Below, piece after piece: positions 39,001-40,604 of a stretch of 40,604 nt of DNA. Under the pieces are notes generated by a model that was given only the letters and a program-made list of their open reading frames with translations, did not search any database and had not been told where the DNA came from. Every line of letters starts with the position of its first letter. The first letter of the stretch is position 1. Both the position numbers and the translations under genes were made by a program. The stretch covers positions 1 through 40,604 of the forward strand of contig JAQGLR010000309.1 of the NCBI GenBank assembly GCA_028292765.1, written 5' to 3'. The stretch is from Massilia sp. GTDB taxonomy: Bacteria > Pseudomonadota > Gammaproteobacteria > Burkholderiales > Burkholderiaceae_D.

Positions 39001-39074
39001 GCGGGTGTAGCTCAATGGTAGAGCAGAAGCTTCCCAAGCTTACGACGAGGGTTCGATTCCCTTCACCCGCTCCA
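39001..39074 (+). tRNA. tRNA-Gly (anticodon CCC), CCA encoded
   Basis: GCGGGTG/CACCCGC acceptor, GGTTCGATTCC T-loop, TTCCCAA anticodon loop, terminal TCCA. Confidence 0.95.
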
Positions 39075-39116: not shown

Positions 39117-39413
39117 TTACCGTTCCGCCTGGCGCCGCTTCGGCACCGCACTCACGACCATGCCCATCGGCCGCAAGAGCTTTTCCGCGGTGGCGAGCGT
39201 CGGACTCGATTCTTCCCGCTCGATATCCTGCAAGGTCCGTGCCGATACCCCGCACAACTTCGCATACTCGGCGATGGTCAGGCGCAGTGCGGTACGGATT
39301 TTGCGGACGACCGCCGGTATCGGCAGCCAAGGATCAGCCGCCAGTTCGTCCACCAGTGTGCGGTGTGCTTCTAGCGCCTCGGCGGGCGTCAAGGGTTTGA
39401 AGCGTTTATCCAT
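39117..39413 (-). CDS. XRE/HipB-like helix-turn-helix regulator
   Basis: IRTALRLTIAEYAKLCGVSARTLQDIEREESSPTLATAEKLLRPMG: HTH-3 pattern. Confidence 0.82.
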   Translation of the reverse strand: MDKRFKPLTPAEALEAHRTLVDELAADPWLPIPAVVRKIRTALRLTIAEYAKLCGVSARTLQDIEREESSPTLATAEKLLRPMGMVVSAVPKRRQAER

Positions 39414-39515: not shown

Positions 39516-39806
39516 CTAAAACGGCAACAGTTCGTCTTTCCCCGGTGGCGGCACGGCCAGGTCGATCTCGCGCAGCGCCAGCGTCTCCAGTTGCAGCAAT
39601 GCGAGCAACCGTCCGGTCTGGAACGGGGCCCAGGCCCGGAAGCCGTTCGGCTCGATCGACACGAGCATCACCGGGCGGGCAGGGAAGTGCGTTGACACTT
39701 TCTTCCAGAGCGGCTCGGCAGCACCCTTCAAGGTATAGCGCGGGTCGACGATCGCGACGAGGACGGGCGATCCATGCGGCGCGAATTCCGTAATCTGCAC
39801 CCGCAT
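39516..39806 (-). CDS. Hypothetical protein (96 aa) coupled to the S24 repressor
   Basis: MRVQITEFAPHGSPVLVAIVDPRYTLKGAAEPLWKK...; start overlaps the S24 stop (TGATG). Confidence 0.65.
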   Translation of the reverse strand: MRVQITEFAPHGSPVLVAIVDPRYTLKGAAEPLWKKVSTHFPARPVMLVSIEPNGFRAWAPFQTGRLLALLQLETLALREIDLAVPPPGKDELLPF

Positions 39807-40528
39807 CAAATCCGGTCGCTTTCCTTGCGCACGACACGGCCAATGATGAGGCAGCCGTCACCCTCGCAGGCGCGGCGGTAATAGCTACGCTGGTCCGGGT
39901 TGTCGGAGGCCAGCCACCAGCGGCCGCCGTCTTTCTGCATCCGCTTGACGACCGGTTCGCCATTGAAGTTTACGGCGAACACTTCGCCGACCACCGGCTT
40001 CCTGTCGGCGGTATTGATCACGACAATATCGTCCTCGTACAGCGTCGGCTCCATGCTCTGGCCCTTGATGAGGATCGCGATGAGATTGGCTGGGTTGAGC
40101 CCCTTGCGTTCGATCCAGTCGCGACGCATGCCGACGGTGCCGCCGTCGTGATGCTCGGGCTCGGTCTGGAAGCCGGTGACGCCGGCGGAAAGGCGCAGCT
40201 TCACCATGGGCACCTGGACGAAAGCCTCGTCATTGGCGTCAAGAATCTCGACGCGCATCGCGCCCGGGATCAGGGCCTCGGGGTTCGATCCCTGCAGGCC
40301 GGCGATGATCGCCGGCGGCAGGCTTTTACCGGTGACCTTGGCGATGGCAAGCAATTGCTGGAGGTTCGGGCTGTGCTTTTCGGTCTCCCAATGCGAGATG
40401 TTCGCCTTGGTATGGCCGCGCGCCGTCCCCAGCGCGAACGCCAGTTTCGTCCCGAGCGCTTCCCCCGATAACCCGGCATCTTTCCTGGCCTCTCTCAGCC
40501 AGTTGGCAATCATTGTCTTGAGTTCCAT
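39806..40528 (-). CDS. CI/LexA-like XRE-S24 self-cleaving repressor
   Basis: N-terminal HTH (ALGTARGHTKANISHWETEKHSPNLQQLLAIAKVTG), cleavage-type LSAG, catalytic GQSMEPTL Ser and VVKRM Lys. Confidence 0.92.
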   Translation of the reverse strand: MELKTMIANWLREARKDAGLSGEALGTKLAFALGTARGHTKANISHWETEKHSPNLQQLLAIAKVTGKSLPPAIIAGLQGSNPEALIPGAMRVEILDANDEAFVQVPMVKLRLSAGVTGFQTEPEHHDGGTVGMRRDWIERKGLNPANLIAILIKGQSMEPTLYEDDIVVINTADRKPVVGEVFAVNFNGEPVVKRMQKDGGRWWLASDNPDQRSYYRRACEGDGCLIIGRVVRKESDRI

Positions 40529-40537
40529 GGCGCAAGT

Positions 40538-40602
40538 GTATAGGAAGCGGCACGCGGTTGTATAGAAAAACTTGACCGTAAAGTATAGAATACCTATACT
40601 TT
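40538..40602. promoter_or_regulatory. Operator region with repeated GTATAG half-sites and a rightward sigma70-like promoter
   Basis: GTATAG at 40538, 40560 and 40583; perfect IR AAAGTATAG-AATAC-CTATACTTT (40580-40602); TTGACC (40572-40577)-17 bp-TATACT (40595-40600). Confidence 0.7.
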
Positions 40603-40604
40603 GT

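Follow-up and report, generated by a model that had tools for sequence, protein, structure and literature searches.

The right end of the analysed stretch of Massilia sp. DNA (the window, 40,604 nucleotides) holds a repressor gene, a small partner gene named ORF2 and, next to the repressor start, an operator array with a promoter that reads out of the window (Table 1). The repressor matches the profiles of Pfam Peptidase_S24 (E=5.8e-19) and HTH_3 as well as phrog_4, a transcriptional repressor family (E=4e-39). It has the composition of an S24/LexA-type protein, namely an N-terminal HTH and a C-terminal S24 peptidase with an A-G site and catalytic Ser and Lys residues. The autocleavage signature proposed in the first-pass annotation is borne out by A115-G116, S158 and K195. 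These residues are invariant in the alignment of the repressor relatives, and residues 145-212 align with LexA chains; RecA-dependent autocleavage would be expected of such a protein. The best match of the repressor in phage records is CI of Variovorax phage VarioGold (55% over the C-terminal half), and no match to the holin described below or to ORF2 was obtained in these records.

Table 1. Positions of the features discussed (window numbering unless L003 is named)
Feature	Position	Strand	Remarks
tRNA-Gly (CCC)	39001..39074	+	Flanks the module on the left here, in two relatives and, next to a different holin, in another genus
ORF2, 96 aa	39516..39806	minus	ATG overlaps repressor stop (TGATG); conserved C-terminal Pro-Phe
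S24-type repressor (predicted self-cleaving), 240 aa	39806..40528	minus	HTH 11-70, peptidase 112-233
Repressor catalytic Lys195	39944-39946	minus	Signature residue
Repressor catalytic Ser158	40055-40057	minus	Signature residue
Repressor predicted cleavage site A115-G116	40181-40186	minus	Signature residues
Possible weak repressor promoter TATACA-16-TATACA	40537..40564	minus	Consensus match only; ends 8 nt before ATG
Putative operator O1	40538..40554	.	GTATAG-gaagc-GGCACG; adjoins repressor start; right arm degenerate
Putative operator O2	40560..40576	.	GTATAG-aaaaa-CTTGAC; right arm within -35 box
Putative operator O3	40583..40599	.	GTATAG-aatac-CTATAC, perfect; right arm provides -10 box
Holin promoter TTGACC-17-TATACT	40572..40600	+	Reads out of window; TTGACC 40572-40577, TATACT 40595-40600
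Overlap stretch, C103 and C208	40147..40604 = L003 3702-4159	.	96% identity
Holin gene, 76 aa	L003 3411-3641	minus	

The three GTATAG half-sites that had been pointed out in the first-pass annotation start 22 and 23 bp apart and form a conserved, cI-like tandem array. The perfect 9-bp inverted repeat is located at O3 (40580-40602) and reads AAAGTATAG (40580-40588), N5 and CTATACTTT (40594-40602), and the divergent promoter leaving the window, a good one, is present under the operator array. In dinucleotide-preserving shuffles of the 76-bp region three GTATAG were found in 0 of 20,000 cases, so this array cannot be put down to chance; a 9-bp repeat of whatever sequence, its arms 5 bp apart, appeared in 2 of 20,000. 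Since its right arm is degenerate, O1 is only a half-site in the window; it is a perfect palindrome in the relatives L088-L091. The possible promoter of the repressor lies 8 nt from the ATG and no Shine-Dalgarno sequence was seen at the start of the gene, which suggests that the repressor mRNA is nearly leaderless.

The last position of the window is also the end of its contig (C103), in a genome of 520 contigs that is 85% complete. The absent side is supplied by a strain-variant contig of the same assembly (C208, locus L003; 4,159 bp), which overlaps the last 458 bp of the window and continues rightwards. From this overlap and from synteny we infer that the two contigs join, and the join appears sound since L034 and L035 have a gene order identical to that of L003 without an assembly break. 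The operator half-sites are unchanged between the two copies, whereas the surrounding bases differ. On L003 the promoter is followed, with no terminator in between, by the gene of a 76-aa holin and then by genes for an aldo/keto reductase, a DUF6064 protein, an AstE/AspA-like protein (opposite strand) and trmB, as called with a simple codon-usage caller. Neither an endolysin nor a phage operon was found beyond the edge on this contig.

The 76-aa protein matches two PHROG holin families, phrog_4237 (E=2.9e-10) and phrog_20 (E=2.6e-8). Against the Pfam HP1 and P21 holins it remains just under the cut-off (27.7 bits versus 28.8 for PF16080), and one of its Massilia relatives exceeds that of PF16082. 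A model of moderate confidence, made on the L084 copy (Massilia sp. Leaf139), has two helices (5-21 and 24-73) and a charged C-terminal extension. Small size, two membrane helices, a charged C-terminal tail and the profile match are what is found in holins of the P21/HP1 type, and the protein is predicted to permeabilise membranes.

The module recurs in the genus. With the full-length repressor counted at E<1e-115, 32 of 62 congeneric genomes carry it, and in 27 of these the holin is directly divergent; none of the 27 pairs has internal stops. Four others (G024, G032, G033 and G385) have a 136-aa phrog_1024 protein with four transmembrane helices in the place of the holin, and the remaining one has an insertion of about 16 kb. 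Moreover, more distant repressors stand opposite a holin of the same family as the 76-aa protein in G006, G010, G019 and G302. The modules occupy several chromosomal sites among housekeeping genes, and their named carriers include M. timonae, M. aurea, M. arenae, M. kyonggiensis and M. rhizosphaerae.

The operator layout is kept along with the genes. Three tandem operators at steps of 22-24 bp, with O2 and O3 fused to the -35 and -10 boxes, are conserved in the cassette loci that were retrieved, O1 being partly decayed in some of them and the -35 hexamer weak in some. The operators of groups A, B and D are GTATAG-N5-CTATAC; the repressors of group C share the common peptidase domain but have a different HTH, and their operator is GTTTAG-N4-CTAAAC in the same layout. 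This co-change with the DNA-binding domain supports the view that the putative operators are specific for their repressor, which is predicted to bind O1-O3. In the whole genome of the window GTATAG-N5-CTATAC exists at this one site, and the perfect palindrome was found at the module only in 17 carriers (G000 and 16 more) and in 0 of 16 congeners without this repressor group. With one locus per genome, this is a single-target switch, and the SOS-type regulon that had been offered as one possibility in the first-pass annotation is not supported.

Effectors have been exchanged. Non-homologous membrane proteins found behind related repressors are the phrog_1024 protein, a LydA-type holin (PF16083, E=6.8e-11), which sits behind a cro-like gene, and a phrog_2359 holin, a weak match (E=7.7e-4). 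At the tRNA-Gly/trmB-recQ site of genus g36, the repressor and ORF2 are accompanied by the cro-like gene and the LydA-type holin in place of the 76-aa-type holin. The phrog_1024 protein, annotated in PHROGs as of unknown function, is a four-helix membrane protein of 136-143 aa that replaces the holin in L041, L043, L044, L134 and L135, and may represent a holin family that has so far escaped recognition.

ORF2, which falls within the coordinates given in the first-pass annotation but received no comment there, could not be assigned to any family of Pfam, PHROGs, NCBIfam or PADLOC. Its model is a small alpha/beta fold with no significant structural match in PDB or viral models, and PADLOC gave nothing convincing. 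It adjoins the repressor across Oxalobacteraceae, prophages included, and was not found in the other members of the order that were sampled. Apparent relatives outside Oxalobacteraceae (E about 1e-4) were rejected, being short stretches of long frames that resemble response-regulator receiver segments. The idea that the small ORF belongs to an imuA-imuB/SRAP mutasome was likewise discarded, as no such profile match was obtained. The C-terminal Pro-Phe is present in 47 of 49 distinct ORF2 sequences, mostly preceded by acidic residues, and the SSB of the window's genome ends in DMDDDIPF; it could be guessed that ORF2 mimics the SSB tail. The modules of the M. aurea type and of G027 showed no ORF2, which is therefore not essential.

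The origin of the module is illuminated by Massilia sp. Root335 (G384; L150 1-20000 and L151 1-2812), where the repressor, ORF2, operators and FtsH-side flank of the module enclose about 16 kb. This cluster contains small regulators as well as tail genes, among them those for a tail-terminator-like protein, the tail tube, a chaperone and a 1435-aa tape measure, together with the lysis genes for a holin, an endolysin and an Rz spanin. Genes for a head, a terminase or an integrase were not seen. Tail and lysis genes under a repressor, in a cluster where no head genes were seen, make it F-type-tailocin-like by gene content. By the module of the window there are no tail genes, and no relatives of the cluster endolysin or tail gene that were tested exist elsewhere in that genome. 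The Root335 layout is likely the parental arrangement of the solitary-holin module, gain rather than loss of the cluster being the alternative. To account for the solitary state, the holin tree requires five changes, at least three of them forced by supported branches, but the alignment has few columns and the count of independent origins is soft because of it. A protein of 175-195 aa with a CxxCxGxG zinc-ribbon-like motif also adjoins the repressor (L151 1007-1594, L152 7279-7806 and L159 10677-11225) and is possibly the antiterminator or activator of the cluster.

We consider it probable that the module is a dedicated DNA-damage switch with the solitary holin as its single target, derived from a prophage or tailocin. 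This reading is based on the gene order, the signature residues, the operator layout and its co-change with the repressor, the private operator, the recurrence in the genus and the Root335 site. In the undamaged cell a repressor dimer on O1-O3 would hide the -35 and -10 boxes of the holin promoter and would probably tune its own promoter. RecA, probably the trigger, would as filaments cause the repressor to self-cleave at A115-G116 through Ser158/Lys195, upon which the holin promoter would open. The two-helix holin could then produce inner-membrane lesions by which the damaged cell would kill itself, lyse or become depolarised; without an endolysin the holin may kill without lysis. The benefit may lie in altruistic death, in setting free cell content or public goods, in abortive infection or in dormancy as with TisB.

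That last outcome can be taken as an explanation of its own, in which an SOS-triggered, endolysin-less holin depolarises the membrane and yields tolerant cells, like TisB in E. coli. The resemblance to P21-type holins (pinholins) and the absent endolysin agree with this; nevertheless holins usually trigger irreversibly, and we regard it as rather unlikely. With TisB/istR-1, the SOS-induced membrane toxin of E. coli, the module shares a small membrane protein that is expected after DNA damage, but control there is by LexA and an antisense RNA, whereas Massilia has a private S24 repressor and a holin-family protein (PMC11449926 and general knowledge).

The module could also be the decaying remnant of a prophage or tailocin, with no current function and kept since loss of the repressor frees a toxic holin. 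The Root335 cluster, tailocin-like and located at the same site, and the holin without an endolysin point in this direction, as does the pattern of constraint. Median dN/dS by group is about 0.09-0.17 for the repressor, 0.19-0.47 for ORF2 and 0.06-0.57 for the holin, so that the repressor is under strong purifying selection while the constraint on the holin is weaker and variable; the former may in part reflect addiction rather than benefit, as repressor loss would free the holin. However, about half of the congeneric genomes have the module in an intact form, and at several chromosomal sites, with operators kept and effectors exchanged. Moreover, a useless toxic leftover should mostly lose its holin first, whereas four genomes carry another membrane protein instead. 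We therefore hold decay to be quite unlikely.

In the lambda cI/OR region three tandem operators lie between divergent promoters, with the promoter boxes inside the operators, and the repressor has a Ser/Lys self-cleavage signature. The module resembles it in its tandem operators, the boxes within them, the probably leaderless repressor mRNA and the Ser/Lys signature, but it has no cro opposite and no phage, the divergent gene being that of the holin. The lysogeny switch of a complete prophage or mobile island, proposed in the first-pass annotation with phage genes expected to the right, is very improbable and, provided that the L003 join is right, is refuted here: although the repressor family and operator layout are cI-like and more distant repressors reside in apparent real prophages (L045, L050-L053 and L157/L158), what follows the divergent promoter is a single holin and then housekeeping genes up to trmB-recQ, with no cro, excisionase, integrase, polymerase, head or tail genes on L003 or its syntenic relatives. 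Ordinary housekeeping genes downstream had been named as an observation against the proposed switch; such genes do follow, but this applies only by half, because the first gene downstream is a phage lysis gene.

There are few bacteria in which self-lysis through domesticated phage repressors has been well documented (Alp and pyocins in P. aeruginosa), and what looks like a far simpler version, a single repressor acting on a single holin promoter, recurs through the genus Massilia. Alp consists of a damage-cleaved repressor and a self-lysis set with a putative holin and is thought to be prophage-derived; AlpR controls AlpA, an antiterminator that activates the four genes alpBCDE (PMC7969949, PMC8609362). 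The Massilia module is similar in its chromosomal location, and probably in its derivation from a prophage, its holin output, the cleavage of its repressor upon damage and self-lysis. It differs in having its operators directly on the holin promoter, without an AlpA-like gene or a leader terminator, the holin being the first gene after the promoter on L003. In addition, it has a single effector plus ORF2 instead of the four-gene cassette, one gene being followed by the aldo/keto reductase. Since these two defining features of Alp are missing, the module would work like Alp without being a member of it. Where PrtR-PrtN controls R/F pyocins and other tailocins, activated RecA leads to cleavage of PrtR, of which there is an uncleavable variant (PrtR S162A), and the lysis genes lie within the tailocin cluster (PMC8609362). 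Root335, with repressor, tail, holin, endolysin and spanin genes and no head genes, resembles this PrtR-PrtN arrangement (PMC8609362), but most Massilia modules are without tail genes and endolysin, and repression would be direct and not via an activator.

In the open-access literature no paper was found on tailocins in Massilia, or on holin, prophage and SOS in this genus. No description of an orphan or solitary holin was found there either, apart from a comment that phages seldom have a lysis system made up of a holin alone. More broadly, and as a possibility rather than an expectation, Oxalobacteraceae may carry a distinct class of repeatedly evolved chromosomal suicide or dormancy modules made of a self-cleaving repressor, ORF2 as a new partner protein that couples the switch to SSB-binding proteins through its SSB-like C-terminal tail, an exchangeable holin, and an HTH and operators that are swapped together. 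If true, this would be a modular 'damage in, hole out' device, linking DNA damage to the membrane and kept by selection. The recurrence through the genus, together with the tailocin-like cluster that one genome carries at this site and with genera that have other holins, makes the shrinkage of phage weapons into death switches, and the selection on them, open to testing. Tests are possible in cultivable strains, and the two-gene system can be rebuilt in E. coli.

Some related observations concern the neighbourhood and the wider family. In Pseudoduganella and Massilia (L104, L110-L112 and L115) a related S24 repressor is divergent from contractile-tail baseplate genes (Baseplate_J, Tail_P2_I), in a run led by phrog_17923 and phrog_1072 proteins, possibly an R-type tailocin. 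Between tRNA-Gly and ORF2 the window encodes a 98-aa XRE-type HTH protein (39117-39413, minus strand; HTH_3 E=1.7e-10), antitoxin-like and with no toxin partner evident. The interval from tRNA-Gly(CCC) to trmB-recQ (window 39001 to the end of L003; L131, L132 and L145) is shared by two genera as a site for these modules, their holins being unrelated, and may be an old integration hot spot.
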